Under the pieces are notes generated by a model. That model saw nothing but the letters and a program-made list of their open reading frames with translations. It searched no databases and had not been told where the DNA came from. From contig JBBHKE010000603.1 of NCBI GenBank assembly GCA_037447655.1, forward strand, positions 18,009-82,008: 64,000 bases of DNA, read 5' to 3'. A program made the position numbers and the translations under genes. Position 1 is the first letter of the stretch; each line of letters opens with the position of its first letter. The DNA comes from Zygnema cylindricum. Its lineage: Eukaryota > Streptophyta > Zygnematophyceae > Zygnematales > Zygnemataceae. Of this stretch, positions 2,658 to 64,000 are shown piece by piece.

Positions 2658-3450
2658 GGAGTGAAGGTCGTGGAGAAGGTTTCTACATAAGAAAAGAAGA
2701 TACTATTTCTGTGTACTTTGTAAAGTGACTGCGTGTTTTGATTATGTGGTAGCAAAGGACCAGATTCAATTTGTTTGTTTACTATACGATCGCAGCGTGC
2801 TTCTGCGATAATCTGTAGTTGTGCAACTTTGTTTTTAATATTTGATAGGTTTTGAAGAGCTCTAGCAAAAGAGTAGTGTCTTGACTTCCGCCTATCAACG
2901 TAGGCAGGAGCAGTAGGGCAGTGTTTAGTCTCAGAGGTGGACAATAAGGTTAATTTAGTGTGTAGCCTATTTCTCCACATTGTTAATAATGGTTCGTTTA
3001 TTTATAAAAAATGTGAAGTTTGTTAAATTCGTTCTCTTTCAAGAACTTGTTTTGAATTTTGGAGTAATTGGTGCAATCTAAATATAATGTACCATGTGCA
3101 AGTAAGGGTGTCTGTCTATCTACTTCCTTCAAAATTAAACGCTAAACCAAGAAATGAAAAAGTGTCATACGAAAAAAGTGCAGAAGCCGAAATACAATTC
3201 ATGTTATCCTCAAACTTAGCTTCGAATTACTGCGTCTTTCAATCTTCAAAATTAATGGTTACCCACCTTGAGAACCGAGTGAAACAAAATGACGCCGACC
3301 AACAAATAGGAAAACACATTTCACAGGATATCAATCATCTTGGGGGAGAGAAATAGATGTAATTATTTTTTGCTGTCACCAGTATGTAGGGAAAAAACAT
3401 TCGTAGAAGTCTCGGAACATAATATCATTTTGAAAACTCTTCGCCGCAAT
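2658..3450. other. Intergenic, no gene recognised
   Basis: Only short ORFs without recognisable domains on either strand. Nothing repeat-like stands out apart from AT-rich composition. Confidence 0.5.
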
Positions 3451-3454
3451 AGCG

Positions 3455-3845
3455 ACTTTTCCTCCCTTTCCCACTCTTCCCCACTCCTTGCTGGAATGTT
3501 TCAACATAGCATTATTGTGAGAAGAAAGAGCTTTGGAAAAGAAAAAAAATGGCTACCTCTTTGCGGAATTTGGTGTCAACGAAAAAACAAAATCAGGAAG
3601 TATGGAGGAAAGCTATAGAATTAGTGATGTCGACAGTGTCATCAATATGTATGAACTCGATAATGTTACAAGATACCAGATGTCTGCAATGACACGAAAA
3701 AGCCGAAGTCTACAATAGCCACGACTTTGAGTGACAACTTTTGTTTTCAAAAATCGGAACATCCATAAACCATGTAGGGAGAATCTCCACTACAAAACTT
3801 TGTGCGCTCAAGTTACAGTTGCATCGGTACACACCCTAAGATGCC
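3455..3845 (+). repeat. Interspersed repeat family R, copy 1
   Basis: This copy starts with a pyrimidine-rich block followed by a GGAATG motif. It continues through GTGATGTCGACAGTGTCA-like sequence and GTGACAACTTTTGTTTT, then an AATCTYCAC block near its end. The same order of blocks recurs at 8835-9345 and 12490-13045, so these are copies of one non-coding transposon-like family. Confidence 0.45.
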
Positions 3846-4184
3846 TTCAAAAGGTTAAATGTCTTGCAAGGGAAAGGCATGGTTCAGAAGTGTTTCGAGA
3901 TTTAAAAATAGTTCAGATGAATGCTCACAAAGGCTAGCTCCAATTTTATGTTCAATTAATGTTCTGAAGTTGGAAGCCAATACCTAGTTTAGTATTTGAT
4001 TCAGTAGTTAGTTCAGTTCAGTATCTAGTAGATCAGTTATTTCAGTATATTTCTAATTGAGTATGTCATATAGTTTTCGGTTCAGTATCCACTGTAATAT
4101 TTGGTTAGGTTTTCTGTTAAATATTTTGTTCAGTTTACTAGTTCAGCTTTCAATTCAATAACTAGTTAGGTATTTGATTCAGTA

Positions 4185-33271: not shown

Positions 33272-33273
33272 CT

Positions 33274-35472
33274 TTATCCTTTTGCGTTATCATCATACCC
33301 CATAAAAATTCTTGGTAAGCCCTTAGGCTCCATTTTCCATCTATCCTGTGAAGTATCTAGAATAAAACACTTGCTGCCAAAGATTTTAAAGTGGCTAACA
33401 TCAGGTTTCTTTCCTGTCCAAAGCTCATAAGGCGTGGTGCTAACAGATCTAGAAGCAATTCTATTCTTAATATAAACAGCACAGTTTAGTGCTTCAGCCC
33501 AGAATTTCAAATCTAGCCCTTTATCTGCAAGCATGGACCGAGCACTCTCTGTCACTGTTCTATTTAATATTTCAGAAACACCATTTCGTTCTGGTGTGTA
33601 AGGAACAATAAGATTGTGACTAATACCTTCTTGAATGAGGAATTCTTCGAATTCCTTTGATATGTATTCTCCCCCATTGTCCGATCTCAACGCCAAGATT
33701 GGAACTCCATCAAGCTTTTCCGCCCACGCTTTGTAATGTTTGAAGTGAGTGAACACTTCACTCTTATGTTGCATGAAGTAGACTTTAGTGTACCTGGAGT
33801 AGTCATCTGTGAATGTAACCATATAGTGGACGCCTCCAGCTGAAGCCACTTGTGAGGGACCGAGAACATCAGAGTGTATTAGTTGTAGAACTTTCTCCGA
33901 TCTGTTGTCCGTTTCCTGTGGAAGTGGCAATTTGTGAATCTTGCCAAGTGAGCAACCATCACATGATTTTATAGGATGAGAACTGAGAGAAACTCCCTCG
34001 ACTTTTCCCAAATTCACTATTTTCTTAAGACTATCATAGTTCATATGTCCTAATCTTTTATGCCACAACTCATTTTCAGATTGTACACTGGAGTATAGAA
34101 CATCATTTTCTTTATATTCCGCCATGTCCATCCGGTACATTTTGCTAGCATCTCTAGTCCCTGTTACTCCTACTTTCCCTTTCTTGCTAACAACCTGTCT
34201 TCCTCCTTTCAGAACAACCTCAAAGCCTTTGCTCTCCACTAATGATGTAGAAAATAGATTTTTCTTAAAGTCTGGTACATACAAAACATTGTGAAGGGTT
34301 CTCTCTACCGACTTTCTCCCCACATCTACCATCAAAGATACATCACTCTGAGCTGAGGTTTGAACACTCATGCCACAAGTATAGTAGATACTCCTTGGAG
34401 ATGTTTGCTGCAGATTCGTAAAAGCCGCCTTTTTCCAACACATATGGGCAGACGCTCCCGTGTCCATGATCCATCCTGCATCCTTTGGACCCTCCATGGC
34501 AGCAGCCATAGCAAATAACTCCGCCTCCTCTTGCTCATTGAAGCTTAGTGACTCATCTGCATTAGTTGCAGAAGCTGAAAAGAGAGCATTTCCACGTGAA
34601 GGATTTCTAGAAAAACCTCTGTAATACTGGCTCTGTTGCCAACATGGCCTGTATAAACCTGTCTCATTAGCCTTCTTCAATTTAGGACAGTACCTGTATC
34701 CGTGACCCTTCTCAGAACAATAGAAACAAGTAGTAGTAGATGGCCTATTCTGCCTCTGATTAAACTGATTCTGATTCTGGTTAAACTGATTCCTATTCTG
34801 ATTTAACTGAATTCTTTTGTCAAAGTCTGTTACAAATGCTTCAACTTTTCCTTCTCCCTCAAGGAGTTTAGTATTTGTTTCTTCCTCCAATATAAGATTA
34901 TATGCTAACTGAAATGACCAGCTAGCTTTATCATGACTCTTTAATTGATTAGACACACCCTTCATGCTATTAGGGAGACCTCTAATAAGCAAAGCTGCCT
35001 GTTGAAACTTAGGAAATGACCCCCCAGAAGAAGAGTGAGCATCAATGAGCGCACGAAAATTGTCACAATACTCTACCATAGATCCCCCCGTGTATTTGTA
35101 TCCCCAAATTTTCCCAGCCACCAAAAGCTCCTCTTGAACATTCGCTTTCTCAAAAGCGGATTTCAGAGACGTCCAAATCTCCCTCGCCTTCTTCATTTTC
35201 AGTCGAGACATGACCAAATTTTCTGAAATACAAAGGATTAGATTGTTCCTTGCCATTGAATTCTTCTTCGCCCAATTTGGATCTGTTTCATCAAGGGAGC
35301 CATCCAAGACCCCCAATAAGTCAGCAGTTTCAAACGACGATTCAACCATCGCCGCCCAATAAGCATACTTTTGGCCATTGAAGATAGGAATCCTTGATGA
35401 AAGGCCCATAACCCGTTGTTCTACAACCACCGTTGCAGGCGGTGAACCAGCAGTAGTAGTGGAAGTAGACAT
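33274..35472 (-). CDS. Element A Gag-protease-integrase
   Basis: A 732-codon frame. Residues about 20-210 match the copia Gag (UBN2-type) pattern. A CCHC zinc knuckle (CFYCSEKGHGYRYC) lies near residue 250 and the protease active site (WIMDTGASAHMC) near 335. The GAG-pre-integrase HHCC region (LWHKRLGHMNYDS, CDGCSLGKIHKLP) lies near 470. The integrase core has the DDE aspartates (HSDVLGP, RSDNGGEY) and the glutamate in NGVSEILNRT. The frame starts in the LTR. It ends at a TAA inside GYDDNAKG, where related copies read on, so the stop separates this part from reverse transcriptase. Confidence 0.9.
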   Translation of the reverse strand: MSTSTTTAGSPPATVVVEQRVMGLSSRIPIFNGQKYAYWAAMVESSFETADLLGVLDGSLDETDPNWAKKNSMARNNLILCISENLVMSRLKMKKAREIWTSLKSAFEKANVQEELLVAGKIWGYKYTGGSMVEYCDNFRALIDAHSSSGGSFPKFQQAALLIRGLPNSMKGVSNQLKSHDKASWSFQLAYNLILEEETNTKLLEGEGKVEAFVTDFDKRIQLNQNRNQFNQNQNQFNQRQNRPSTTTCFYCSEKGHGYRYCPKLKKANETGLYRPCWQQSQYYRGFSRNPSRGNALFSASATNADESLSFNEQEEAELFAMAAAMEGPKDAGWIMDTGASAHMCWKKAAFTNLQQTSPRSIYYTCGMSVQTSAQSDVSLMVDVGRKSVERTLHNVLYVPDFKKNLFSTSLVESKGFEVVLKGGRQVVSKKGKVGVTGTRDASKMYRMDMAEYKENDVLYSSVQSENELWHKRLGHMNYDSLKKIVNLGKVEGVSLSSHPIKSCDGCSLGKIHKLPLPQETDNRSEKVLQLIHSDVLGPSQVASAGGVHYMVTFTDDYSRYTKVYFMQHKSEVFTHFKHYKAWAEKLDGVPILALRSDNGGEYISKEFEEFLIQEGISHNLIVPYTPERNGVSEILNRTVTESARSMLADKGLDLKFWAEALNCAVYIKNRIASRSVSTTPYELWTGKKPDVSHFKIFGSKCFILDTSQDRWKMEPKGLPRIFMGYDDNAKG
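35403..35413 (-). other. Primer-binding site of element A (half-tRNA type)
   Basis: Immediately inside the 5' LTR the sense strand reads GGTTATGGGCC. This complements the anticodon arm of plant initiator tRNA-Met (GGGCCCAUAACC) rather than its 3' end. The usual copia site TGGTATCAGAGC is absent. The bases also encode Gag residues V-M-G. Confidence 0.75.
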
Positions 35473-36450
35473 GAAAAACAGCAGAAACTATCAAAGTACC
35501 TACTCAACAGCCAACTTAGATCTGACACAAAATATGAGTCAGAAAGCCAATATGCTTAAAATTTCCCACAGTGATACACAATACAATAAACTGACAATTC
35601 CCAAAATTGCAGCCCAAATGACCCAATAAACCATAAGATATGATGTCTAGAAGTTTCCCAAAAACTGCCCTTAGAAAATCATATTCCCAAAACTGGATAC
35701 TACAAAATTGTCTAAGTCCTAAGTTATATACTCACAGTGTGTATCTACTGATCTACACTAATTCGGGTAACCGTTACTACGGTTATTATCCTGACTAACG
35801 ACAAAGCATCCTACAAGTACGTTATTGTACCTTAAAAACCTAATTACTATTTTCTAAAACCTGATTAACGGAACACTATTTTTTATCACACTAAACTACA
35901 AACTAATGTTATTCAGATATTTACAGAAATTGATCCGCACACAAAACGTTCTAATCGTACACAAAACGTTCCAAATGCTTTGTCAGCGGTGACCGCTAAA
36001 GTCCAACCCAATGTGGTCATGTAGTACGAAGCACCTGAGTGCTTCGTCACTTGTGGTCCCACGCGAATCACGCTTGTGGTCCCTCGTGAATCGCGCTTGT
36101 GGTCCCAGGTGAATCGCGTCCGTTGGAACAAATTCGATCGACGATGGTACCGTCGAGCTGTACCATATGTTTCCGGAATACTCGGAACAGATCCCATTCA
36201 TCCGATCATGTGAATCGAATCGTCAACTTTTTGACGCGTATGGCTGATTGTCGGCGCTACTCCAAAAAACTGCATACGTTATTTCGCCGACACGTGTCCC
36301 TGCAAAAGTATGATACAGTACGATACACTCTACTGTACCTCTTGCTACTGTAACACTAATTAAGGTAAGTCTTACAGTAGACTACTAGGAAAAATATCCT
36401 AAGTTATTTTTACCCCTATTAACTGAAATAAAGATTTATAAATTACAACG
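35414..36450 (-). repeat. Element A 5' LTR, containing the Gag start codon
   Basis: Same length as the 3' LTR. The Gag ATG is at 35470-35472, 59 bp inside the LTR, so the first 19 Gag residues are LTR-encoded. The terminal base adjoining each flank differs from the 3' LTR, consistent with point mutation. Confidence 0.95.
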
Positions 36451-40339: not shown

Positions 40340-42432
40340 CTATTCACTTAATCCCACTGCTTCCCTACAATACTTCAGCTTAGGAGCAGGAAGAGCTTTA
40401 GTGAGCATATCAGCAATCATTTTTGCATCTGGTAAGTAACATAATTTAATCACTCTAAAGAACACTTTTTCTCTTACAAAGTGTAATCGTACATCCATGT
40501 GCTTGCTTTTGAAGTGATGACTCGGGTTAGAAGCAATGGCAATGGCAGCCTGGTTATCACACCAGATCACCTGCGGACCAACTTGCATGTATCCTAGTTC
40601 TTGTAACATGGATTTTACCCATAAGAGTTCTTTGAGGGCCGAGCTTGCTACCATATATTCCGACTCCATTATCGACTGTGCTGTCACCTTTTGAAGTTTG
40701 CTGCTCCAGCAGCAAGTACCGTTCCCAACTTGTAGAACGAATCCCGTGGTAGATTTCCGGCTTGGCATGTCGCCATAGCTTGCATCACTCCATGTTTGCA
40801 GCTTGACTTCTCCTCTGCCTAGAGTGAGTTTGAGATCTTTAGTTCCTACCAAATATCTTAAGACTCTCTTTGCTGCATCCAGATCAGATTTTCTCGGATT
40901 TTCTAGACTCCTACTCAGTACCCCGACTGCTGCAGCAATGTCAGGACTGGTACAATTCATGAAGTATATTAAGCTTCCCACTATCTGTCTATAAGGTATT
41001 ATTGCCATAGGATCATTCTCCCCTGATTCTAAATACTCGCTAACAATGACACCTGGTTTTGTCTCTTCTCCCTTTAACTTCTGCCGAAACTCCATTGGAG
41101 TTAAACATCCTTTTGCCCCCCGCATTCCGTACTCATCTAACATGTTTCCAATAGCCTCTTTTTGAGTCAATTTTATTATTTTCTTTTTTATGTCCCTCTC
41201 TACCTGGATACCCAAAATATATTTTGCCTCACCGAGGTCTTTCATCTCGAACCGTGAGTTTAGAGCAGTTTTGATTTTGTTAATTTGAGCCATTAATTTG
41301 CTAATTAATAACAAATCATCTACATATACTGCTATATACACTATCCCATTTTCACCCTTTAGAACGTAGACAGAGTGATCAGAACTTATCCTTTGAAATC
41401 CTAGACTAGTCAGGAATTCATCAAGCTTTATATTTCACTGTCTCGGGGCCTGTTTTAGGCCGTACAAAGATTTTAGCAACTTGCATACTAAGTGCTCTTT
41501 TCCTGGTTCCACATACTTTTCAGGCTGCTGCATGTAAATGGTCTCTTCTAGTTCTCCATGCAAAAAGGCCGTTTTTACATCCATCTAATGAATTTCCATA
41601 TCTTCTATAGCAGCTAGGGACAGCAAAATCCTAACTGTTGGAAATCTTACAACCGGAGAAAATGTTTCTTCAAAATCGATTCCTTCCTTTTGATTGTACC
41701 CCTTTGCCACAAGTCTAGCATTATAGCGTTCAATGGTGTTATCAGGATTTAACTTCACCTTGAATACCCATTTGCTGCCGATCGCTTTTCGGTCAGGAGG
41801 AAGGTCCACGAGCTCCGATGTTTGAGCCTCCATGATCGACTTCATTTCGTCGTTTGCCGCCTCAATCCAGTGATTCCGCTCTGGTGTTGAGAAGGCCTCT
41901 TGGATGGTCAAGGGCTCCTCGAGACTGCCGAGTAGGCAAAGTGAGAGCTTGCTTGCAAGTGACTGCTTGATCTTCTTCCCCCCGTAAATTCTGAGGCTGA
42001 GATCGTCGGATGTCGCGCATTGCGCTGATTGCGCTGATTGCATTGGTTGCGATCCGTGTTTTGCTGGTTGCGCTGGTTGCGATCCGTTTCTTGCTCATTA
42101 CGCTGGTTGCGATCCGTGTGTATTGACTGATCTTGGTCCGTCTGGACCCGAAGTTGGTGAGGAAGTTGGAGAGAGTCTGTTTCCGGAGTCATTACCAGAG
42201 TTTGTGGAATCTGCGGGACAATTTCCTGCATGCAATCTAAAATGACATACTCCTGTACTTTTTGTTTCTTTTGCTGCTCTGTCATGTGAAATAAATCTAT
42301 GGAGTCTAGTTCATCCTTAACAATGATGTTTCTAGCTACAACTATTTTCTGTCTTTCAAACACAAAGACTCTATAACCTTTCGAGTGATCATCATATCCT
42401 AACAGAATACCCGGTAATCCCTTCGGTTCCAT
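40340..42432 (-). pseudogene. Element C reverse transcriptase-RNase H, broken
   Basis: Frames at 41908-42432, 41585-42043 and 40340-41341 together cover the integrase-RT linker, RT and RNase H of unit C. Lesions visible against unit D include a Trp-to-TGA change in the KQAPRQW block near 41433 and a Gln-to-TAA change near 41586. There is also a frame change in the low-complexity linker near 41930. The polymerase motif YVDDLLLIS and the RNase H C-terminus are intact. Confidence 0.88.
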
Positions 42433-42435
42433 TTT

Positions 42436-43608
42436 TCATCTATATGTAGACTTATCCAATTTATAGCATTGACTACCAAAGACCTTGAAATGGCTAACAT
42501 CTGGTTTGCTACCTGTCCAGATTTCGTAAGGAGTTGTGTCTACCGATCTTGATCCTATCCTATTTTTAATATAAACTGCACAATTTAGAGCCTCAGCCAC
42601 GAATTTCGGATCCACATTTTTATCTGCGAGCATAGATCTAGAGCTTTCTGTGAGAGTTCTATTCAGTCTTTCCGACACCCCATTTTGTTCCGGTGAATAT
42701 GGAAGAGTCAATAGATGACTAATGCCTTCCTCGAGTAAAAAGGTTTCAAACTCTTTTGATGTATATTCACCACCATTGTCCGATCGGAGCTGCAAAATAG
42801 ATGAATTATGAAGTTTTTCAGCCCATGCTTTATAGTGTTTGAAGTGACCAAACACTTCACTCTTCTCCTTCATGAAGTAAACTTTTGTAAACCTGGAGAA
42901 ATCATCTGTGAAGGTGACCACATATTTCATCCCTCCGGCAGAAGGAACCTTCGCCGGACCAAAGACATCCGAATGAATTTGTTGTAGAAGTTTCGTCGAC
43001 CGATGCTCAGACTCCTTAGGAAATGGCAATTTGTGGATTTTGCCTAAAGCGCAACCATCGCAAGTCTTGACTGGCCCATCTGTGATTGATACACCCTCTA
43101 TCTTTCCAGCAACAACCATTTTCTTCAAACTATCATAGTTGACATGGCCTAATCTTTTATGCCACAACTCATCTGAGTGCAAAACACCGGAGTACAAAAC
43201 ATCATTTTCTTTTGTATTAGCCATATCCATGCGATACATCTTCCTACTATCTCTAGTACCTGTAACTGCAACCTTGCCGTTTTTGCTAACAACCTGCCGA
43301 CCGTTTTTCAAACTAACTTCAAAGCCTTTACTCTCAACCAACGACGTAGAAAACATATTTTTCTTAAAGTCAGGCACAAATAAGACATTGTGAAGAGTCC
43401 TTTCAATTGCTTTTCCATCCACATCAACTAGCAAGGACACATCACCCATTGCACGAGTTTGGAAACTCATTCCACAAGCATAATAAATATTTTTCTCCGG
43501 CGTGGCTTTCAGATTTTTGAAGATGGCCTTGTTCCAACACATATGCGTTGACGCTCCTGTATCCATAATCCATCCAGGGTCTTTTGCGCCTTCCATTGCT
43601 GCCGTCAT
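42436..43608 (-). CDS. Element C protease-integrase part
   Basis: A 390-codon frame with the protease site WIMDTGASTHMC, the HHCC region (LWHKRLGHVNYDS...CDGCALGKIHKLP) and the DDE residues of integrase (HSDVFGP, RSDNGGEY, NGVSERLNRT). It ends at a TGA that is also present at the same place in unit D. The upstream Gag is in another frame because of changes around the zinc knuckle. Confidence 0.88.
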   Translation of the reverse strand: MTAAMEGAKDPGWIMDTGASTHMCWNKAIFKNLKATPEKNIYYACGMSFQTRAMGDVSLLVDVDGKAIERTLHNVLFVPDFKKNMFSTSLVESKGFEVSLKNGRQVVSKNGKVAVTGTRDSRKMYRMDMANTKENDVLYSGVLHSDELWHKRLGHVNYDSLKKMVVAGKIEGVSITDGPVKTCDGCALGKIHKLPFPKESEHRSTKLLQQIHSDVFGPAKVPSAGGMKYVVTFTDDFSRFTKVYFMKEKSEVFGHFKHYKAWAEKLHNSSILQLRSDNGGEYTSKEFETFLLEEGISHLLTLPYSPEQNGVSERLNRTLTESSRSMLADKNVDPKFVAEALNCAVYIKNRIGSRSVDTTPYEIWTGSKPDVSHFKVFGSQCYKLDKSTYR

Positions 43609-43863
43609 AGCGAATAGATCCGTGTCGTCTTCCTTAGAAAATGTTAGAGGTTCGTCTTGGAGTGATGAAGAAGCTGAAAACAGTGCATTTCCACGAGGTG
43701 TAGGCCTCGTGAAGCTTTTGTAAAACTGACTTTGTTGCCATCCCGGCCTGTATAAACCGGAATCGTTAGCTTGTTTAAGTTTAGGACAGATATTGTATCC
43801 ATGACCTCTCTCACTACAATAAAAACATGCATTGTTTGATTTTCTATTTCCCCCCAGATTAAA

Positions 43864-44565
43864 CTAACTGAATTGGGTAAACTGATTACTTTGCTGATTA
43901 AATTGACCTTTCTTTCCAAATTCTGAATTAAAAGCCTCTACTTGCTCAACATTGAGGATGTTAGATGTAGCTTCCTCCTCTAATAAAATATTGATCGCTA
44001 ATTGTAAAGTCCAGCTAGCTTTATCTTTCTGTTTGAGCATGTCAGATGCTCCTTTCATACTACGAGGGAGACCCCGCATGAGCAATGCTGCCTGTTGAAA
44101 CTGAGGAAATACCCCACCGGCACAAGCATGTGCATCTACAAGAATACGAAATTTGTTAGAATATTCAGCCATTGTACCGCTAGTGTACTTATAGTTCCAA
44201 ATTTTTCCAGCCAATAAAAGTTCTTCCTGAACATTAGCCTTTTCATAATCACTTTTAATGGATTTCCAGATATCAATTGCTTTTTTCATTTTAATCCGAA
44301 ACATAGCTAAGTCCTCAGATATACAAAATTTCAAAATAGAACGAGCCTGCGTATTTTTCTTAGACCATGACGGATCAGATTCATCCAAAGAACCATCCAA
44401 TATATCCAAAAGATTGACATTTTCAAAATGTGTCTCCACCATATCCGCCCAGTAAACATACTTATCCCCGGAAAAGATAGGAATTCTTGATGACAGGCCC
44501 ATAACCTGTTGTTCTACAACCATCGGTGCAGGTGGAGGAGCAGCAGTAGTAGTAGAAGTAGACAT
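43864..44565 (-). CDS. Element C Gag (truncated by a stop)
   Basis: It starts at ATG 44563-44565 inside LTR 2 and runs 233 codons through the copia Gag region, ending at a TAG just before the zinc knuckle. Unit D has a sense codon there. The knuckle itself (HGYNICPKL-type) lies in a neighbouring frame at 43760-43830. Confidence 0.88.
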   Translation of the reverse strand: MSTSTTTAAPPPAPMVVEQQVMGLSSRIPIFSGDKYVYWADMVETHFENVNLLDILDGSLDESDPSWSKKNTQARSILKFCISEDLAMFRIKMKKAIDIWKSIKSDYEKANVQEELLLAGKIWNYKYTSGTMAEYSNKFRILVDAHACAGGVFPQFQQAALLMRGLPRSMKGASDMLKQKDKASWTLQLAINILLEEEATSNILNVEQVEAFNSEFGKKGQFNQQSNQFTQFS

Positions 44566-45313
44566 GATACACTCTCAGAAGCTATCAAGAATCCTACCAA
44601 ACAGCTGTTCTTAAGTGCTCACCAATTCTTATACAAGCATCCAAATCTCACAAAACTATATTAGAATATAGAGTAGCATAAACACTGACAACTCCCAAAG
44701 TTTCAGCTCAATTGACCCTACAACAATCAAGATATAATACTCAGAGGTTTCCCAAAAACTGTCTGCAGTTTTACTACTTGGAAGTCTGGATACATAAAAA
44801 TGCCCTAAGTCCTAAGTCTTTTACTTTCGGTGTTCTACCGCCGATAACAGTGTACCTGAGAGATACGTCCAAAATCAACCCACCTACTGAGATCTACGTG
44901 TCCTTGATCATGCCAACCCAATCTATCATTGTACAGTCAATATTACTCAGAATGTAGATTAAGTGTTTGTACAAATACTTGTCGGCTAAGACACTTGTGA
45001 TACTCATATGAATCTCGTCCGTTGACTAGATTCATATCAATCGCAGCTGCGTTGTCCCATACCAGATCACATTTACATCACCCGCGGCTGCGGTGTCCTG
45101 CACCGAATCATATCCAAGATAGTAGCAGTTGCGTTGTCTGTACGGATCTTATTCAAAGTAACCGCAGCTGCGTTTGTCTTGTCTGTGTCGCAGCTTCGCT
45201 GCTGCGCTGCTCTGCTGCTGCGCTGCTGCGCAGCTCTGCTGTATAGCAGTTGCGCTGCTGTCTGTATAGTTGCTTTGCTGCTCTGAGACTGAAAGCTTTC
45301 CAAAAAGACAACA
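44507..45313 (-). repeat. C/D tandem LTR 2 (shared middle LTR)
   Basis: Serves as 5' LTR of C and 3' LTR of D. It is 807 bp, 8 shorter than the outer two, mainly in the GCAGC-rich array. TAGGACTTA lies at 44806-44814. No target duplication flanks it. Confidence 0.93.
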
Positions 45314-45399: not shown

Positions 45400-47492
45400 T
45401 TATTCACTTAATCCCACTGCTTCCCTACAATACTTCAGCTTAGGAGCAGGAAGAGCTTTAGTGAGCATATCAGCAATCATTTTTGCATCTGGTAAGTAAC
45501 ATAATTTAATCACTCTAAAGAACACTTTTTCTCTTACAAAGTGTAATCGTACATCCATGTGCTTGCTTTTGAAGTGATGACTCGGGTTAGAAGCAATGGC
45601 AATGGCAGCCTGGTTATCACACCAGATCACCTGCGGACCAACTTGCATGTATCCTAGTTCTTGTAACATGGATTTTACCCATAAGAGTTCTTTGAGGGCC
45701 GAGCTTGCTACCATATATTCCGACTCCATTATCGACTGTGCTGTCACCTTTTGAAGTTTGCTGCTCCAGCAGCAAGTACCGTTCCCAACTTGTAGAACGA
45801 ATCCCGTGGTAGATTTCCGGCTTGGCATGTCGCCATAGCTTGCATCACTCCATGTTTGCAGCTTGACTTCTCCTCTGCCTAGAGTGAGTTTGAGATCTTT
45901 AGTTCCTACCAAATATCTTAAGACTCTCTTTGCTGCATCCAGATCAGATTTTCTCGGATTTTCTAGACTCCTACTCAGTACCCCGACTGCTGCAGCAATG
46001 TCAAGACTGGTACAATTCATGAAGTATATTAAGCTTCCCACTATCTGTCTATAAGGTATTATTGCCATAGGATCATTCTCCCCTGATTCTAAATACTCGC
46101 TAACAATGACACCTGGTTTTGTCTCTTCTCCCTTTAACTTCTGCCGAAACTCCATTGGAGTTAAACATCCTTTTGCCCCCCGCATTCCGTACTCATCTAA
46201 CATGTTTCCAATAGCCTCTTTTTGAGTCAATTTTATTATTTTCTTATTTCTGTCCCTCTCTACCTGGATACCCAAAATATATTTTGCCTCACCGAGGTCT
46301 TTCATCTCGAACCGTGAGTTTAGAGCAGTTTTGATTTTGTTAATTTGAGCCATTAATTTGCTAATTAATAGCAAATCATCTACATATACTGCTATATACA
46401 CTATCCCATTTTCACCCTTTAGAACGTAGACAGAGTGATCAGAACTTATCCTTTGAAATCCTAGACTAGTCAGGAATTCATCAAGCTTTATATTCCACTG
46501 TCTCGGGGCCTGTTTTAGGCCGTACAAAGATTTTAGCAGCTTGCATACTAAGTGCTCTTTTCCTGGTTCCACATACTTTTCAGGCTGCTGCATGTAAATG
46601 GTCTCTTCTAGTTCTCCATGCAAAAAGGCCGTTTTTACATCCATCTGATGAATTTCCATATCTTCTATAGCAGCTAGGGACAGCAAAATCCTAACTGTTC
46701 GAAATCTTACAACCGGAGAAAATGTTTCTTCAAAATCGATTCCTTCCTTTTGATTGTACCCCTTTGCCACAAGTCTGGCCTTATAGCGTTCAATGGTGTT
46801 ATCAGGATTTAACTTCACCTTGAATACCCATTTGCTGCCGATCGCTTTTCGGTCTGGAGGAAGGTCCACGAGCTCCCATGTTTGAGCCTCCATGATCGAC
46901 TTCATTTCGTCGTTTGCCGCCTCAATCCAGTGATTCCGCTCTGGTGTTGAGAAGGCCTCTTGGATGGTCAAGGGCTCCCCTGAGACTGCCAAGTAGGCAA
47001 AGTGAGAGCTTGCTTGCAAGCGACTGCTTGATCTTGTTCCCCCCGGAAATTCTGAACTGAGATCGTCGGATGCCGCGCATTGCGCTGATTGCGCTGATTG
47101 CGTTGGTTGCGATCCGTGTTTTGCTGGTTGCGCTGGTTGTGATCCGTGTCTTGCTGATTGCGCTAGTTGCGATCCGTGTGTATTGACTGATCTTGGTCCG
47201 TCTGGACCCGAAGTTGGTGAGGAAGTTGGAGAGAGTCTGTTTCCGGAGTCATTACCAGATTTTGTGGAATATGCGGGACAATTTCTTGCATGCAATCTAA
47301 AATGACATACTTCTGTACTTTTTGTTGCTTTTGCTGCTCTGTCATATGAAATAAATCTATGGAGTCTAGTTCATCCTTAACAATGATGTTTCTAGCTACA
47401 ACTATTTTCTGTCTTTCAAACACGAAGACTCTATAACCTTTCGAGTGATCATCATATCCTAACAGAATACCCGGTAATCCCTTCGGTTCCAT
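45400..47492 (-). pseudogene. Element D reverse transcriptase-RNase H (long frame, detached from integrase)
   Basis: The 631-codon frame at 45400-47295 holds the complete RT ([29 protein letters not shown]) and RNase H (IWCDNQAAIAIASNPSHHFK, ADMLTKALPAPKL). A preceding frame at 47163-47492 covers the linker MEPKGLP...HMTEQQK, and the two overlap out of phase near 47200, so there is a frameshift in the linker. A TGA at about 47493 separates both from integrase. RT-RNase H itself shows no lesion. Confidence 0.88.
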
Positions 47493-47495
47493 TTT

Positions 47496-49583
47496 TCATC
47501 TATATGTAGACTTATCCAATATATAGCATTGACTACCAAAGACCTTGAAATGGCTAACATCTGGTTTGCTACCTGTCCAGATTTCGTAAGGAGTTGTGTC
47601 TACCGATCTTGATCCTATCCTATTTTTAATATAAACTGCACAATTTAGAGCCTCAGCCACGAATTTCGGATCCACATTTTTATCTGCGAGCATAGATCTA
47701 GAGCTTTCTGTGAGAGTTCTATTCAGTCTTTCCGACACCCCATTTTGTTCCGGTGAATATGGAAGAGTCAATAGATGACTAATGCCTTCCTGGAGTAAAA
47801 AGGTTTCAAACTCTTTTGATGTATATTCACCACCATTGTCCGATCGGAGCTGCAAAATAGATGAATTATGAAGTTTTTCAGCCCATGCTTTATAGTGTTT
47901 GAAGTGACCAAACACTTCACTCTTCTCCTTCATGAAGTAAACTTTTGTAAACCTGGAGAAATCATCTGTGAAGGTGACCACATATTTCATCCCTCCGGCA
48001 GAAGGAACCTTCGCCGGACCAAAGACATCCGAATGAATTTGTTGTAGAAGTTTCGTCGACCGATGCTCAGACTCCTTAGGAAATGGCAATTTGTGGATTT
48101 TGCCTAAAGCGCAACCATCGCAAGTCTTGACTGGCCCATCTGTGATTGATACACCCTCTATCTTTCCAGCAACAACCATTTTCTTCAAACTATCATAGTT
48201 GACATGGCCTAATCTTTTATGCCACAACTCATCTGAGTGCAAAACACCGGAGTACAAAACATCATTTTCTTTTGTATTAGCCATATCCATGCGATACATC
48301 TTCCTACTATCTCTAGTACCTGTAACTGCAACCTTGCCGTTTTTGCTAACAACCTGCCGACCGTTTTTCAAACTAACTTCAAAGCCTTTACTCTCAACCA
48401 ACGACGTAGAAAACATATTTTTCTTAAAGTCAGGCACAAATAAGACATTGTGAAGAGTCCTTTCAATTGCTTTTCCATCCACATCAACTAGCAAGGACAC
48501 ATCACCCATTGCACGAGTTTGGACACTCATTCCACAAGCATAATAAATATTTTTCTCCGGCGTGGCTTTCAGATTTTTGAAGATAGCCTTGTTCCAACAC
48601 ATATGCGTTGACGCTCCTGTATCCATAATCCATCCAGGGTCCTTTGCGCCTTCCATTGCTGCCGCCATAGCAAATAGATCCGTGTGGTCTTCCTCAGAAA
48701 ATGTTAGAGGTTCGTCTTGGAGTGATGAAGAAGCTGAAAACAGTGCATTTCCACGAGGTGTAGGCCTCGTGAAGCTTTTGTAAAACTGACTTTGTTGCCA
48801 TCCCGGCGTGTATAAACCGGAATCGTTAGCTTGTTTAAGTTTAGGACAGAATTTGTATCGATGACCTCTCTCACTACAATATAAACATGCATTGTTTGAT
48901 TTTCTATTTCCCCCCAGATTAAACTGTCTGAATTGGGTAAATTGATTACTTTGCTGATTAAATTGACCTTTCTTTCCAAATTCTGAATTAAAAGCCTCTA
49001 CTTGCTCAACATTGAGGATGTTAGATGTAGCTTCCTCCTCTAATAAAATATTGATCGCTAATTGTAAAGTCCAGCTAGCTTTATCTTTCTGTTTGAGCAT
49101 GTCAGATGCTCCTTTTATACTACGAGGGAGACCCCGCATGAGCAATGCTGCTTGTTGAAACTGAGGAAATACCCCACCGGCACAAGCATGTGCATCTACA
49201 AGAATACGAAATTTGTTAGAATATTCAGCCATTGTACCGCTAGTGTACTTATAGTCCCAAATTTTTCCAGCCAATAAAAGTTCTTCCTGAACATTAGCCT
49301 TTTCATAATCACTTTTAATGGATTTCCAGATATCAATTGCTTTTTTCATTTTAATCCGAAACATAGCTAAGTCCTCAGATATACAAAATTTCAAAATAGA
49401 ACGAGCCTGCGTATTTTTCTTAGACCATGACGGATCAGATTCATCCAAAGAACCATCCAAAATATCCAAAAGATTGACATTTTCAAAATGTGTCTCCACC
49501 ATATCCGCCCAGTAAACATACTTATCCCCGGAAAAGATAGGAATTCTTGATGACAGGCCCATAACCTGCTGTTCTACAACCAC
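47496..49583 (-). CDS. Element D Gag-protease-integrase
   Basis: A 695-codon open frame. It contains Gag, a CCHC knuckle (CLYCSERGHRYKFC near residue 230), the protease site WIMDTGASTHMC, the HHCC region and integrase with both aspartates and the glutamate. The start codon present in the LTR of unit C is changed here (ATG to ATC at about 49624), so the natural start is lost. The first ATG remaining in frame overlaps the primer-binding site. It ends at the TGA shared with unit C. Confidence 0.88.
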   Translation of the reverse strand: MVVEQQVMGLSSRIPIFSGDKYVYWADMVETHFENVNLLDILDGSLDESDPSWSKKNTQARSILKFCISEDLAMFRIKMKKAIDIWKSIKSDYEKANVQEELLLAGKIWDYKYTSGTMAEYSNKFRILVDAHACAGGVFPQFQQAALLMRGLPRSIKGASDMLKQKDKASWTLQLAINILLEEEATSNILNVEQVEAFNSEFGKKGQFNQQSNQFTQFRQFNLGGNRKSNNACLYCSERGHRYKFCPKLKQANDSGLYTPGWQQSQFYKSFTRPTPRGNALFSASSSLQDEPLTFSEEDHTDLFAMAAAMEGAKDPGWIMDTGASTHMCWNKAIFKNLKATPEKNIYYACGMSVQTRAMGDVSLLVDVDGKAIERTLHNVLFVPDFKKNMFSTSLVESKGFEVSLKNGRQVVSKNGKVAVTGTRDSRKMYRMDMANTKENDVLYSGVLHSDELWHKRLGHVNYDSLKKMVVAGKIEGVSITDGPVKTCDGCALGKIHKLPFPKESEHRSTKLLQQIHSDVFGPAKVPSAGGMKYVVTFTDDFSRFTKVYFMKEKSEVFGHFKHYKAWAEKLHNSSILQLRSDNGGEYTSKEFETFLLQEGISHLLTLPYSPEQNGVSERLNRTLTESSRSMLADKNVDPKFVAEALNCAVYIKNRIGSRSVDTTPYEIWTGSKPDVSHFKVFGSQCYILDKSTYR
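49556..49566 (-). other. Primer-binding site of element D (half-tRNA type)
   Basis: Sense GGTTATGGGCC directly after the LTR, identical to the site of unit C (44496-44506) and element A. It matches the complement of the initiator tRNA-Met anticodon arm. Confidence 0.75.
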
Positions 49584-51654
49584 CGGTGCAGGTGGAGGAG
49601 CAGCAGTAGTAGTAGAAGTAGAGATGATACACTCTCATAAGCTATCAAGAATCCTACCAAACAGCTGTTCTTAAGTGCTCACCAATTCTTATACAAGCAT
49701 CCAAATCTCACAAAACTATATTAGAATATAGAGTAGCATAAACTGTTGTTTTGAAAACGTAGCTTCGTGCGTACGCCACGTTTTGTGCGCACGCGACGTT
49801 TCGTGCGTATGTTATTACCGAAAGTAATGTGGTTATACAAATTGAGGATCGAATGGATTTGTGGATTGGGGGAGTAATTGTATGAGTAAAATTAAAGGGA
49901 CGTGATGGAGTAAATGAGTGGCGCGGAATGCGTTAAGAAATGGACGGCGGATTGCGACGCAATCCGACGTAAAATATTTGAAGAGACTAAAATGGTACGT
50001 CGCACGTACGAAACATAATGCGACAAGTGGCATTTATGGAAAAGGACGCGACGGTACAAAGAATCTTATTTTACAAGAGTACTTAAAATTGGTAGGCGTA
50101 ATTTATGGCGAAGTACGTAATTTCAGTACGGACAAATTTGGATGGTTTGACGTCGTTTCGTCAAGTGGAATTTGGGATCACGTGGCGCGACATCGAGGGT
50201 GCTGAACAAGAGCGACGGACGGCGCACAAAGGCCGCCGGTATTTTTCAAGTAGTGGTGACGCGAAATCGCGTCAATCATACAATATCTATTTTTGGACGG
50301 CTCGGATTGTTTTACGAGATTCGTAGAGTCTTGTTGACTTACACGCAATGACTCAGCATACGATTTTGTTGTCGGTGTAAATATTTGTAAAACATTGTTT
50401 TGTCTTTTTGTGAATTGATTATTAGTGTACTTTTACTCATTTTGACATACCTTGAAGTATTCGGGTATCCTAACATTAATTGAGGTAGCTGGTAGATAGC
50501 GTACGGCTGGTATGCCTCCGTACGTTCAGTAGTGAGCTCTAGTTTACATTTGTAGGACTTAGTCATTTTAAGACATAGGGAACTTTTTGTACCAAAAACT
50601 GTTTATGGTCATTTTTGGTAATTTTGTCTGCGTATTGCACTCAGATCTGTTGGCAAAATTATGTGAAATTTTGCATGTATGTTCTTCCTTTTATTGTTTA
50701 CCTTGCTACAGATTTGCAGACCTATTGTGTGTCTGGTCTGTGTGTAAATTTATTGTGAAGTTGTCAGTTTTATCAGAGTTCTGGCAGACTGTTTTTCTGC
50801 AACTTTGACTAGATGATGTGATCACTCTTTTTATTATTTTTGTCTGAAACTTTGTGAGGTCATTTAATAGCCTAAAAACTATCTCTCTTTAGAGTTTCAG
50901 CTTGGTTTATTATTTCTGTAGAATTCTGTGTTGATTCAAAGTAGGCTGTTTTTGGGTAGTCTGTGGTGCTTCCGAGGGTAAATCCATGGCTGAAAATGGC
51001 TATGGACAACATAAACACTGACAACTCCCAAATTTTCAGCTCAATTGACCCAACAACAATCAAGATATAATACTCAGAGGTTTCCCAAAAACTGTCTGCA
51101 GTTTTACTACTTGGAAGTCTGGATACATAAAAATGCTCTAAGTCCTAAGTCTTATACTTTCGGTGTTCTACCGCCGATAACAGTGTACCTGAGAGATACG
51201 TCCAAAATCAACCCACCTACTGAGATCTACGTGTCCTTGATCATGCCAACCCAATCTATCATTGTACAGTCAATATTACTCAAAATCTAGATTAAGTGTT
51301 TGTACAAATACTTGTCGGCTAAGTCACTTGTGATACTCTTATGAATCTCGTCCGTTGACTAGATTCATATCAATCGCAGCTGCGTTGTCCCGTACCGGAT
51401 CACATTTACATCACCTGCGGCAGCGGTGTCCTGCACCAAATCATATCCAAGATAGTAGCAGCTGCGTTGTCCGTACGGATCTTATCCAAATTAACCGCAG
51501 CTGCGTTTGTCCTGTCTCTGTCGCACCTTCGCTGCTGCGCAGCTCTGCTGTATAGCAACTGCGCTGCTCTTCTGTATAGCAGCTGCGTTGCTGTCTGTAT
51601 AGTTGCTGCGCTGCTGCGCTGCTCTGAGACTGAAAGCTTTCCAAAAAGACAACA
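49567..51654 (-). repeat. C/D tandem LTR 3 (right), split by solo LTR E
   Basis: Parts 49567-49743 and 51017-51654 add to 815 bp, the same as LTR 1. TAGGACTTA lies at 51139-51147. The right end abuts the GACTA duplication and the element B integrase. Confidence 0.93.
49744..51011 (+). mobile_element. Solo LTR E (copia, 1,268 bp)
   Basis: Starts TGTTGTTTTG and ends GGACAACA, with a perfect 5-bp duplication TAAAC (49739-49743, 51012-51016). It lies inside LTR 3, opposite in orientation. It contains a Gag start near its end (ATG at 50986, MAENGYGQQ), a hairpin at 49948-49966 and TAGGACTTA at 50553-50561. No interior is present, which is the signature of LTR-LTR recombination. Confidence 0.92.
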
Positions 51655-57850: not shown

Positions 57851-59001
57851 TGTTGTCCTTGGCCTATTTCAGCCATGGATTACTCACGGAAGACACCCAT
57901 AGACTACCCCAAAACAGTTGTGTTTCAGACAACACAGATTACTCCAAAATTTAACAAAATCACCTCAAACTGCAGAAATATGCAGTATACTATAGACACC
58001 GTCAACTCCCAAAGTTACAGCTAAATTCACCAAGGAGTCTAGAAGATATAAGCTTCAGAGTTTCCCAAAAAAAACTAACAACTTCTCAAACTAACCAAGC
58101 AGACTTCCCACAAAAATCTACAAAATTAACAAAACAGAATGAAACTTTACACACATTTATTTTGTAGGTCAAAGAATATCTCTACAAAGTTTCATACAAA
58201 AACATCAATCATGGTGATCACATCATCAGGTCAAAGTTGCAGAAAAAAAGTCTGCCATGGCTTTGATAAACTTCAGCTGATAATCAAAAGTATCGTAAGT
58301 CCTACAAGTTATACTTACTCCACTGATTCCTACGCTAATCCTAGAGCTACACGTGTCACTACTTTAAGAGTGAAATACTATTTTATAATGCGCTAAACTA
58401 CAAACAGCTACACGTGTCACTACTTTAAGAGTGAAATACTATTTTATAATGCGCTAAACTACAAACAGATGTTTCTCAAGTATTTACAAATATTTGTCCG
58501 TACAAAAAGTGTTACCGATGCTTAGTCATTTTGTGGTCCCCGAGTGAATCACGTCCTTAAAATAGTGTGAACCTCCAAGTATATCGGTGGCCGCCGTCCG
58601 CACTTCAAATGTACCATGAACCATTTTTGTCAAAGTGGAATCGTGCCACTTACATCGTGTCCGTACCAAGACTTCGTCTTTTACCATAAATGCAAGTAAC
58701 TGATTTATTGTCCACTTGCCAAATATGACTGCTGTACTGTTGCCGTACTTTTCCATAAATTCCGTTTGTTTTATTATGTTACAAATCACACACTTTGTAA
58801 TGTTTCACGTCAGATCGCTTTGACGTCCATTTCAAATGCTTGTTAGCGCCACTCAATTTGACATTCACGTCACTTTAGTATTATCCGTACAATTACTCCC
58901 CCAATCCGCAAATCCATTTGAACCTCCACGTTAAATTAAGTTAGTACTTAATCATTAAAACTCGCGTCAAGTACGCACGAAACTATCTTTTCAAAACAAC
59001 A
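57851..59001 (-). repeat. Element F 3' LTR
   Basis: Ends in TGTTGT/ACAACA. Compared with the other F LTR it has a 60-bp tandem duplication (about 58345-58466: CTACACGTGTCACTACTTTA twice) and lacks about 105 bp near 58527. It has also lost half of the hairpin near 58811. TAGGACTTA lies at 58296-58304. Confidence 0.9.
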
Positions 59002-60221: not shown

Positions 60222-61058
60222 TTACAAAACAATCGGCAAGTAAACGAATTTGTCGACCGAAGGTGTAAGCCTTGTGTCATCGGTTGAGGCTTGTCTCTCA
60301 CTCATGAAAGCACTTGGTTCCCTCCTAGTTGAGGGTAGAACTCGGTTGTTGTCCCATCCATCTCTGAAATTTCCTGTAACACATGCACTTTTATATGATG
60401 GACATACCCTGAAGGTATGTCCTAAATCATTACAATAAAAACAATTCTTAGGTCCTTTTCCGGACTCACTATTACTTCTAATTTTCTGAAACTGAGACTT
60501 AGAAACTTCTATATTCCTCTCATTTGATAAAACCTCTCTACTAGCCTCTTCATCTAAAACACATCTTCTTGCTAGAGTTAAGTTCCAATCCCGTTTATCA
60601 ATTAATTTCAATCTATCTAATGCACTCTTATAGTCTTTAGGCAAGCTTCTCATTAACAAGAGGGCTTGTTGAGTATCTGTACAGTGTTTCTCCATACTAC
60701 CTCCCTCATACTTCTATTCAACAATTTTTGTAACACTTCTAAGCCAATGATATATAGAGGTCTTTGCATACGTACATTCTAAGCACTTCCATAATTCAGC
60801 TGCACTTTTAAAACTTAGGTGTGACATTACCAGTTTCTCACTCAAAGAGTTCATGATAACCCTTAGACACTCGCGGTTATTCTTGTCCCATCCACTTGAT
60901 GTTTCGGTCAAAGTCCCTTCCACCACATCAATTAGTTCCATCATCTCGAAGTAGCTCTCGAGCACACACTTCCAGTAGTGATAGTTGTTAGTTCCATCAA
61001 ATATGGGTAGCCATGGGCATGGGCCCATAACCTGTTGTCCTTGGCCTATTTCAGCCAT
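60222..61058 (-). CDS. Element F Gag with CCHC zinc knuckle (one in-frame stop)
   Basis: Starts at ATG 61056-61058 inside the LTR (MAEIGQGQQVMGPCPWLPIF) and reads through the copia Gag region (NYHYWKCVLESYFEMM, AAELWKCLE). A TAG at 60711-60713 interrupts it; the same frame continues to 60222 with RSLPKDYKSALDRLKL and the knuckle CFYCNDLGHTFRVC. It ends about 40 residues after the knuckle without a protease. Such a Gag could package F RNA in particles of a partner element, which is an inference. Confidence 0.85.
61020..61032 (-). other. Primer-binding site of element F (half-tRNA type)
   Basis: Sense GGTTATGGGCCCA directly after the LTR: 13 bases complementary to the initiator tRNA-Met anticodon arm, two more than in elements A, C and D. 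It also encodes Gag residues V-M-G-P. Confidence 0.78.
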
Positions 61059-62228
61059 GGATTACTCACTGAAGACACCCACAGACTACCCCAAAACATT
61101 TGTATTTCAGACAACACAGATTACTCCAAAAAAAACAAAATCACCTCAAACTGCAGAAATATGCAGTATATTATAGACAGTGTCAACTCCGAACGTTACA
61201 ACTAAATCCACCAAGGAATCTAGAAGATATAAGCTCGAGAGTTTCCCAAAAACAGCTGACAGCTTCATAAACTAACCAAGTAGACTTCCCACATAAATCT
61301 ACAGAATTGACAAAACAAAATGAAACTTTACACACATATATTTTGTAGATCAAAGAATATCTTTACAAAGTTTCATACAAAAACATCAATCAGGGTGATC
61401 ACACCATCAAGTCAAAGTTGCAGAAAAACAGTCTGCCATGGCTTTGATTAACTTAACTATGATCATCAAAAAGTATTCTAAGTCCTACAAGTTATACTTA
61501 CTCTACTGATTCCTACGCTAACCTTAGAGCTACACGTGTCATTAATTTAAGAGTGAAATACTATTTTATAATGCGCTAAACTACAAACATATGTTTCTCA
61601 AGTATTTACAAATATTTGTCCGTACAAAAAGTGTTACCGATGCTTAGTCAGCATCAGTCACATAAGTCCAGCTGACCTTTGTTGTACAGTGTGAAACTCC
61701 TGAGTATGTGTTGGTGATACGGTAAACGATACGTCGTGCTTAAGTCATTTTGTGGTCCCCGAGTGAATCACGTTCTTAAAATAGTGTGAATCTCCAAGAA
61801 TATCGGCGGCCGCCGGCCGCACCTCAAATGTACCATGAACCATTTTTGTCGAAGTGGAATCGTGCCACTTACATCGTGTCCGTACCTAGACTGCGTCCTT
61901 TACCATAAATGCTGGTAACTGATTTATTGTCCACTTGCCAAATATGACGTGCCGTACTGTTGCCGTACTTTTCCAAAAATTCCGTTTGTTTTATTATGTT
62001 TCAAATCACACACTTTGTAATGTTTCACGTCAGATCGCTATGCGATCTGCTGTCCATTTCAAACGCTTGTTAGCGCCACTCAATTTGACCTTCACGTCAC
62101 TTTAATATTATCCGTACAATTACTCCCCCAATCCGCAAATCCATTTGAACCTCCACGTTAAATCAAGTTAGTACTTAATCATTAAAACTCGCGTCAAGTA
62201 CGCACGAAACTATCTTTTCAAAACAACA
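61033..62228 (-). repeat. Element F 5' LTR, with Gag start
   Basis: Sense TGTTGTTTTG to ACAACA. The Gag ATG is 26 bp from its end. It has the hairpin at 62031-62049 and TAGGACTTA at 61479-61487, and shares long stretches with solo LTRs E and H, so these belong to one clade. Confidence 0.9.
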
Positions 62229-64000
62229 GTATCTCCTCCTCCACCTAAAAACCCATGGCCTCCTAATAGGCCCTAGAAGACGCCAACCATAAGAACTCCA
62301 CCTGTTAGTCCCGGAAACCGAATGTGTTTCTGATGTGGAAAAATCGGGCACGATGCCCGCATGTGTCCTGACAAGGGGGCCACTTGCACTCATTGCCACC
62401 AAAAGAGACATTATGTCTATCGGTGCCACATCAAAGACCCTAATTTCACTTATCAAAATCAGATAAAGAACGGCGAAATTCAGGCCAGTTTCGCAAAACC
62501 AGTCACTTCCCCTAAGTAGACCGAGAAGGAGGAAGCTCCTCCTTAGATCTCTAATAGAGAGAGAGAGAAGGTCGAGCTTCAAGCCACAATTGCGGCCATG
62601 ATGAAAGAGCAATTTGCAGCGTTCATGGCCGAAATGAAACCCCAATTTACCGGGATAACTAAGACAGTTGTCCACATGCCGTTGTTGACCGAGCGAACCC
62701 TTCGGGATTCCGCCGTCCAACAACGAGTGGCCACATTTGAAAATGGCTCAGCAGACCATAACTAAGTGGGCAAATTACAAAATTCTAGTGTCCCACTCTC
62801 ATTTGCAAAAGAGCCTCTACCCTCCCTACGGGAAACCGCTCTTACCATCGCGGCAGAGGCACTGACTATATTTGATGGCACTATTCATGAGGCTCATCGG
62901 GTGAAGGAGTGATTAAGTATTCTTTCAACAAAGTTGGAGGATGTACCGAAAGCCCTTCCCCTCATGGACGAGGTTGCAGCACCAGTCGCTTTAAATGCTC
63001 TACAACTTAACCGCAATCTTTCAGTGGTCCAACCGGTTAGAGCGAATGAGCGTTGTAACCTATATCTCTATATCAGTTTCCTAGATAATTCTCGGGGATC
63101 ATTTTGCGTGAACGGTGTCCACCCCTTGCTTCCCCACATGGACACTGGGGCCAAACGCGTGATCCTCGGATCCGGATTTTCCCTCAAGCTTGGTCTGACC
63201 GCAAACTAGCTTCTAGCTGCACCCACCCGACTTCTCACTTCGGCTAGGACTACGGAGCCGGTCCTGGGAATCACAAAGGACCCGCTCATTTTTCGGTTTC
63301 AAACTGGAACCGAAAATGAGTCTGTTGAAATGTTTGTTCATGCATTAGTCACTAAATGCAACGATTACGAGTGTTTAGTGGGCCAGGATGTTATATTCCG
63401 AGTCGGTGGTGGTGTGGACATGCACGACCAGACATTTTCTTATCGACCAACACACTTTTCGAAGCGCAAAATATATCTACCTCTAATTTCAGCCCGCCGA
63501 CCTTTGCCCACTATGGCCTACTCGGCTTCGGCTCTTCACGCTTTTTCGGGGAACTCCGTTGGGGAGGAGATTTTCCACTCCTTGTGGGCTGAAGAAATCT
63601 TCCAAGATATTTCTCCCTTACCCGAGCTCTTTGCAAAGCGCGGCTTAGTTATCAATTCTCACACATTTGACAATATTTATAAGTCCTCGTTATCTATTCC
63701 ATTAACAACTATCCCTCATATACGTACAGTTGCAACCGATCCTTCGAGTTTCTTTCGTATTAGTTGGAAGCCCGTACAATTGAGTCCTCATACGGACGCG
63801 CTCGTTATTTTAGATCTATTCGCCGGAATCGGAACTTCACTATTGTCATGTTTACGGAATGGTCTCCTCATCCGTCACTACTATGCACTAGAAATTGATG
63901 CATTAGCTAGAAAAGCAGAATTGCACCACTGTAATCTCCTGCATTCACAGTATCCACAATTTTTTCCAAAGTGACCCTTTTTACACATGTACACTGCTCT
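62229..64000 (+). pseudogene. Ty3-type polyprotein: zinc knuckles, aspartic protease, cytosine methyltransferase-like domain
   Basis: One forward frame runs from 62229 to the right edge. In order it shows a Pro-rich stretch; two CCHC knuckles (C-x2-C-x4-H-x4-C at 62325-62366, and CTHCHQKRHYVYRC downstream); a linker with a coiled-coil-like helix (KVELQATIAAMMKEQFAAFM); and a retropepsin (HMDTGAKRVILGSGF at 63135, with the second half ending CLVGQDVIFRVGGGVDMHDQ). Then comes a region with DNA methyltransferase motif I (VILDLFAGIGTSLL at 63804) and a motif II-like YALEIDALARKAELHH. Catalytic motif IV (PCQ) would lie beyond 64000. The frame has eight stops (62274, 62331, 62517, 62544, 62763, 62910, 63207, 63972) and no frameshift, so it is dead as it stands. 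Elements with such a domain are known from the alga Klebsormidium and from dinoflagellates. Confidence 0.75.

Follow-up and report, generated by a model that had tools for sequence, protein, structure and literature searches.

A degenerate Ty3/gypsy-type polyprotein with a Dnmt3-like methyltransferase domain and its copies in the same genome

Polyprotein remnant at the end of the window

The features read at the right-hand end of the window, by which we mean the whole stretch of 64,000 nucleotides that was analysed, are given in Table 1. A degenerate polyprotein remnant is bounded on its 5′ side by a copia LTR and on its 3′ side by the contig end at base 64000; since the last base of the contig is also the last base of the window, motifs IV–X of the window copy are unreadable. 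All motifs of the remnant share one forward-strand register, running through 62913 and 63210, with eight in-frame stops (62274, 62331, 62517, 62544, 62763, 62910, 63207, and 63972), and the window copy is therefore a pseudogene. The longest open stretch of this register is 63210–63971 (254 amino acids), and 62913–63206 is open for 98 amino acids. The initial annotation had placed two CCHC knuckles, a DTGA retropepsin, and methyltransferase (MTase) motifs I and II in one frame, which is true of the register, but the frame is not open; its order of protease followed by MTase holds, and the MTase segment is 67% identical to a full-length copy with a PF00145 match.

Table 1. Features at the right-hand end of the window (positions in the window).
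Feature	Position	Strand	Basis
Fragments of copia gag (Retrotran_gag_2), belonging to the interrupting copia element and not to the gypsy-type remnant	60222..61061	-	Pfam
Copia-type LTR abutting the remnant at 62228/62229	61033..62228	-	Repeat partner at 57851-59001
Degenerate gypsy-type polyprotein remnant (CCHC, protease, first part of MTase)	62229..64000	+	Motif reading, own-genome alignment
CCHC zinc knuckle 1, TGA codon inside	62325..62366	+	zf-CCHC E 0.012, below Pfam cut-off
CCHC zinc knuckle 2	62385..62426	+	Pattern reading
Retropepsin and spacer before MTase; TAG at 63207	63096..63767	+	tblastn, 59% identity to intact copy
DTGA of retropepsin	63141..63152	+	
Dnmt3-type C5 MTase, first part, 76 aligned residues; TGA at 63972	63771..63998	+	tblastn, 67% identity, E 5e-30
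MTase motif I, ILDLFAGIGT	63807..63836	+	Pattern reading; domain alignment
MTase motif II region, YYALEIDALARKAELHH	63879..63929	+	Pattern reading

The zf-CCHC profile scores above the Pfam cut-off in the intact counterpart of knuckle 1 (E 1.5e-4), and Asp_protease_2 stays below it in both the window (E 0.03) and the intact copy (E 0.0014). The window segment alone gave no methylase match in Pfam or NCBIfam and no match in the PDB, protein databases, or viral contigs; phage C5 methylases found by tblastn (best E 0.02) were the sole outside match. A motif I + II expression, composed after the segment had been seen, matches once in the six frames of the window. Overall, the window motifs are confirmed as observed, far beyond chance, on the basis of the best other copy in the genome (E 1.3e-169), the number of scored own-genome matches (149, the window's own counted in), and the tblastn alignment of the full-length copy to window positions 62325–63998 with 57–67% amino-acid identity.

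The right edge of the copia LTR is the same in a twin locus, L025. The copia repeat unit includes the opening codons of the copia gag ORF (ATG near 61058); two such units stand in tandem in the window and a single one in the twin (L025 positions 2943–4025). A search of the window for the upstream half of the gypsy-type copy gave no match to its gag piece. Long copia-type polyprotein frames fill the middle of the window (31298–35487, 40340–44574, and 45400–49634, all on the reverse strand), some of which by eye resemble near-duplicates of each other, and a 343-residue frame at 26173–27204 (reverse strand), likewise judged by eye, looks like a fragment of a hAT-type transposase.

Copies in the same genome and their host

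The matches in the 352.8-Mb assembly (2689 contigs) have 52–100% identity and come from 1513 first-look candidates; by hand count, the matched stretch is stop-free in 45 of them, and some may represent a single insertion present in both haplotypes. L025 (99%) is the closest of the copies, and in it a single copia repeat separates gag from the CCHC region; the locus runs from the CCHC region to MTase residue 150, followed by integrase, RT, and a PHD finger on the opposite strand.

The initial annotation had proposed to look for RT, RNase H, and integrase beyond 64000 and for intact copies elsewhere in the genome; all of these were found in other copies. Locus L017 on contig C1344 is a single open frame of 2395 codons with the order gag, two CCHC knuckles, DTGA protease, MTase, RT, RNase H, H2C2/DDE integrase, and a C-terminal PHD finger, so that the methyltransferase shares its ORF with RT, RNase H, and DDE integrase. 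The gag was assigned from position, with no Pfam gag match, and the other matches were PF00145 (2.1e-12), RVT_1 (1.5e-30), RT_RNaseH (3.5e-35), Integrase_H2C2 (1.9e-15), rve (2e-12), and PHD (2.5e-10). As to whether the arrangement is new, the placing of the protease before the MTase stands, and the order is amended to protease–MTase–RT–RNase H–integrase–PHD. With L017 as reference, gag, protease-to-MTase, MTase, RT, and integrase matches, some of them broken, were found in all 11 longer loci (L017 counted in); the PHD finger lies inside the fetched locus in nine, that of L026 lies in the adjoining piece L081, and L023 ends before it. A separate RT search of the genome, aimed at elements without the MTase, gave 105 matches (4374 first-look candidates).

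The Pol order of Ty3/gypsy elements is PR-RT-RH-IN, and by this order, together with the H2C2 and rve domains, the element is classed from its sequence as Ty3/gypsy-type. DIRS elements have a tyrosine recombinase and make no target duplication; membership among them is ruled out by the DDE integrase (rve 2e-12) and by 4-bp duplications. Chromoviruses are Ty3/gypsy elements with a chromodomain at the integrase C-terminus. They resemble the present element in having a chromatin-reader-like module at this place, but the module here is a PHD finger, with an extra MTase in the polyprotein, and membership was rejected since the Pfam matches of the C-terminal piece include no chromodomain. The nearest solved PHD fingers include those of PHF12, Lid, BAZ2B, WSTF, PHF21A, and ORC1b, several of which we take to be readers of unmodified H3K4. 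The PHD finger of the element is a putative, histone-reader-like module that, beside the integrase, may help in the choice of chromatin by binding histones.

The genome also contains 88 scored LHC-domain matches. One exon product has its best match in CP24/Lhcb6 at 319 bits, against 198 for the next group. For two LHC products the highest-scoring PDB chain is 9vfj_2, an LHC chain of 620 amino acids: in the second product it is followed by 5xnl_3, 7oui_2 (title "Chlorophyll a-b binding protein 3"), and 8z9d_33, well ahead of the rest, and in an LHCII product by 8htu_U and 7xqp_a at 455 bits, the next scoring 430. We take the second product for Lhcb3, and 8htu and 7xqp are presumably moss structures; both CP24 and Lhcb3 are characteristic land-plant proteins. 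These likenesses indicate that the host is probably a land plant, moss-like in character.

It is rather unlikely that the host is instead a streptophyte alga, or that the copies are contamination, so that nothing new would follow for land plants. The named database relatives of the element are algae (Closterium, Haematococcus, and a Mesvir model, which we take to be Mesostigma), and 9vfj_2 stands ahead of the land-plant-type chains for both products; a dirigent search says little, giving no match in this genome and none in the control genomes either. Against this reading are the distance of the CP24/Lhcb6 match from the next group, the presence of 5xnl_3 and 7oui_2 among the three chains that come after 9vfj_2, the lead of 8htu_U and 7xqp_a in the LHCII product, and contigs C519 and C152, each of which carries both LHC matches and element copies; a land-plant host is preferred here.

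It should be noted that contigs C519 and C2590 contain clusters of many similar-scoring LHC matches on both strands, probably tandem gene arrays. Contigs C610, C1077, and C889 contain clusters of weak chlorophyll-binding matches, possibly ELIP-like tandem genes, which are known from desiccation-tolerant plants.

Class, motifs, and relatives of the methyltransferase

Six MTase domains, four from the window family (family 1) and two from a second family (family 2), were combined in a profile that was searched against PDB chains. DNMT3A and DNMT3B were at the top, and the ranking was DNMT3A (4e-17), HhaI (9e-8), DNMT2 (5e-7), DRM2 (9e-6), and DNMT1 (0.25), which bears out the relation to C5-MTases of the DNMT3/DRM kind proposed for profile searches, with DNMT3 first and DRM2 lower. 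The DRM2 match falls in the C-terminal part of that protein, where motifs I–IV align. The domain is colinear with DNMT3A in the un-permuted order I-IV-VI-VIII-IX and is classed from these alignments as an un-permuted, Dnmt3-like C5 methyltransferase. Plant DRM2 and animal DNMT3A have the MTase superfamily in common with it, but DRM2 is permuted and scores lower. The AlphaFold model of the domain is poor (mean pLDDT 50), and a Foldseek search with it gave DNMT3 first (E 2e-5, TM 0.33), which is minor support.

Motifs IV, VI, VIII, and IX can be read in copies elsewhere in the genome. Conservation was counted in 51 loci from the 149, with unbroken ones preferred, of which one duplicate and one without a match were set aside (n = 49). 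The catalytic Cys of motif IV is aligned in 45 of the 49; the residue before it is Glu in 42 and never Pro. EN is conserved in 46 of the loci, and 33 have HRVR. Of the motifs that the initial annotation expected downstream, VI (EN) and VIII (HRxR) are therefore present, as is IX, but motif IV of these copies reads ECQ, not PCQ. Family 1 thus lacks the usual Pro-Cys pair, whereas family 2 has PCQ.

The ECQ motif could mean that catalysis is altered or abolished. Seven clean MTase copies were compared in 21 pairs: in 14 pairs, dN was 0.12–0.18 with dS saturated, and in the other seven, dN/dS was 0.17–0.42, one of these values being based on two changes. This comparison shows purifying selection at the level of the coding sequence, which argues against a dead domain despite ECQ.

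Family 2 was recognized in a PF00145 search of the genome (123 scored matches, 782 candidates), which includes open frames outside family 1, and its domains were identified visually and from alignments. It comprises L083, L084, and L085 (contigs C544 and C1374), has an MTase with WPCQ before RT, and is 42% identical to family 1 in the MTase; C544 extends to the integrase and, by eye, to a diverged PHD-like end.

From a large database we took 52 related proteins, most of them without a name. Their motif IV is ECQ in 41, PCQ in 7, DCA in 2, PCE in 1, and DCR in 1; EN is found in 50 and HRxR in 46, with three gaps. A PHD match is present in 30; of the rest, nine extend to the integrase but lack a PHD match, and 13 gave no match to the integrase. 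A quick tree was built from 61 rows, with three short relatives omitted and five phage C5 methylases as the outgroup; 17 of its 57 inner branches are open, and its base is unresolved. Family 1 groups with P0001/P0002 in this tree (SH-aLRT 97), and the partner of family 2 is the long-branched P0043 (SH-aLRT 96), so that each family lies closer to a database relative than to the other family. The MTase and RT were both located in 41 database proteins: RT precedes the MTase in 33 of 33 from one clade (38 rows), and the MTase precedes RT, as in the window family, in seven of the eight others, the exception, P0046, being too short for the tree. The position of the MTase in Pol thus differs by clade.

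We consider it unlikely that the MTase is inactive or a non-DNA enzyme, such as an RNA methyltransferase acting on element RNA or host tRNA, with a structural or RNA role. Dnmt2 acts on tRNA, and DNMT2 does match the profile; the prevalence of ECQ among the relatives and the Glu in place of Pro in the element's own copies point the same way. The DNMT3A match, however, is far stronger, the catalytic Cys, EN, and HRxR are mostly kept, and the usual PCQ occurs in the second family of this genome.

Repeat order, related elements, and proposed mechanism

The L017 copy on C1344 is flanked by two repeats, A and B, in the layout A (85514–86444), ORF, B (94737–94978), GC, A (94981–95911), B (95912–96154). 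The A copies are identical in 931 of 931 bases, on which ground this copy is seemingly young, as well as intact; the B copies are 99.6% identical. TTGG is duplicated in the flanks, and the ends are TGTCATGCC..GCACGACA. Contig C232, from a diverged subfamily, has the same A-ORF-B-A-B order, GC spacer, and ends, with a CCAT duplication, so that TG..CA ends and 4-bp target duplications occur in two diverged copies. On C1407, only the B-A-B end is present, the 5′ part being missing; compared with C1344, its A piece shows 99.9% identity, and its A2.B2 junction falls 226 bases earlier within A. In C783, both A and B were found, with no second A-B within the fetched 2 kb, and the fetched piece of C2577 gave no repeat match. 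The order is thus complete in two of the five copies examined, partial in one, and unseen in two. A G-rich tract resembling a polypurine tract ends where the first B begins; a tRNA scan of the left flank of C1344 found no tRNA.

The B-GC-A junction suggests integration from a two-LTR circle. Reverse transcription would give LTRs of the form B-GC-A, whose ends would join to form a two-LTR circle in which the A.B junctions are imprecise, and the integrase would open the circle at a GACA-GC-TGTC site inside one LTR, leaving A-ORF-B-GC-A-B. Integrase sites inside the LTR of such a circle would thus produce the A-ORF-B-A-B order without a tyrosine recombinase, and the repeat anatomy offers a concrete possible route from a DDE integrase to DIRS-like repeats.

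The same A-ORF-B-A-B order is published for KnitGypsy-Dnmt3 of Klebsormidium nitens (PMC5890265, de Mendoza et al. 2018, in its accessible portion), which places the element in the KnitGypsy-Dnmt3 class. The proposal that it is a member or relative of the retrotransposon-DNMT class is therefore supported, the repeats fitting the published description of KnitGypsy-Dnmt3. Very probably, then, the window holds what is left of an LTR retrotransposon of the Ty3/gypsy type that carried a Dnmt3 and was of the KnitGypsy-Dnmt3 kind. De novo methylation of CG by retrotransposon DNMTs is reported in the same portion of PMC5890265, which offers no mechanism for the repeat order of the Gypsy element. The MTase of the present element, if active, would most likely act on newly made cDNA or recent insertions of the element itself, which would thus enter the host already methylated. 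A retroelement with its own de novo DNA methyltransferase reverses the arms race, since the parasite writes the silencing mark of the host, and the seemingly young intact copy and the 149 scored matches make the idea of self-marking testable.

That the MTase is aimed at the host or at rivals, methylating host or competing DNA or defending the cell against DNA viruses, a published proposal (PMC6338049, accessible portion), is very unlikely, as it does not account for an MTase fused into Pol together with an integrase that ends in a PHD finger. The window segment gives no profile match when taken alone, but its reading as a motif arisen by chance or as some other protein with a Rossmann fold has a negligible probability in view of the own-genome matches and of the 76 residues that align at 67% identity with a full-length, intact copy with PF00145.

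A relic of the KnitGypsy-Dnmt3 kind thus remains the best explanation. A more specific reading, in which a land-plant gypsy lineage, a Dnmt3 with ECQ, a PHD finger for unmodified H3K4 (a convergent form of the DNMT3-ADD logic), and two-LTR-circle integration all hold jointly, is tentative and on balance doubtful.

The comparisons that follow rest on the accessible portions of the cited papers. KnitGypsy-Dnmt3 is alike in its Dnmt3-type un-permuted DNMT within a Gypsy Pol ORF, DIRS-like repeat order, purifying selection, and intronless copies. It differs in coming from Klebsormidium, whereas here the host is different and apparently a land plant and there are two families; a word search of the main text of PMC5890265 gives neither PHD nor "motif IV", and a PHD finger is present here. 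Beyond that portion of PMC5890265 are the apparently land-plant host, the two MTase families in one genome, the PHD finger, the ECQ motif IV, the clade-dependent place of the MTase in Pol, and the B-GC-A junction. The element is a variant within the KnitGypsy-Dnmt3 class, not a separate class.

Titles and the starts of abstracts, with preprints and most subscription papers outside the scope, mentioned no MTase-bearing gypsy element with a PHD finger and none from a land plant, and methylase-encoding transposons are described as absent from land plants such as tracheophytes (PMC6338049). Some DNMT3s lie inside LTR Copia and DIRS elements of streptophytes and dinoflagellates according to PMC12344493, which says Copia where PMC5890265 says Gypsy; animal DNMT3s have PWWP and ADD domains (PMC12344493). 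SymbioDIRS-Dnmt3 of Symbiodinium (PMC5890265) shares the Dnmt3 in Pol, the A-ORF-B-A-B order, and the occurrence of two domain orders, but has a tyrosine recombinase, whereas the present element has a DDE integrase, TG..CA ends, and target duplications. SymbioLINE-Dnmt (PMC5890265) is likewise a retroelement with a DNMT, but it is a LINE with an orphan DNMT class, and the element described here is of the LTR type with an integrase.
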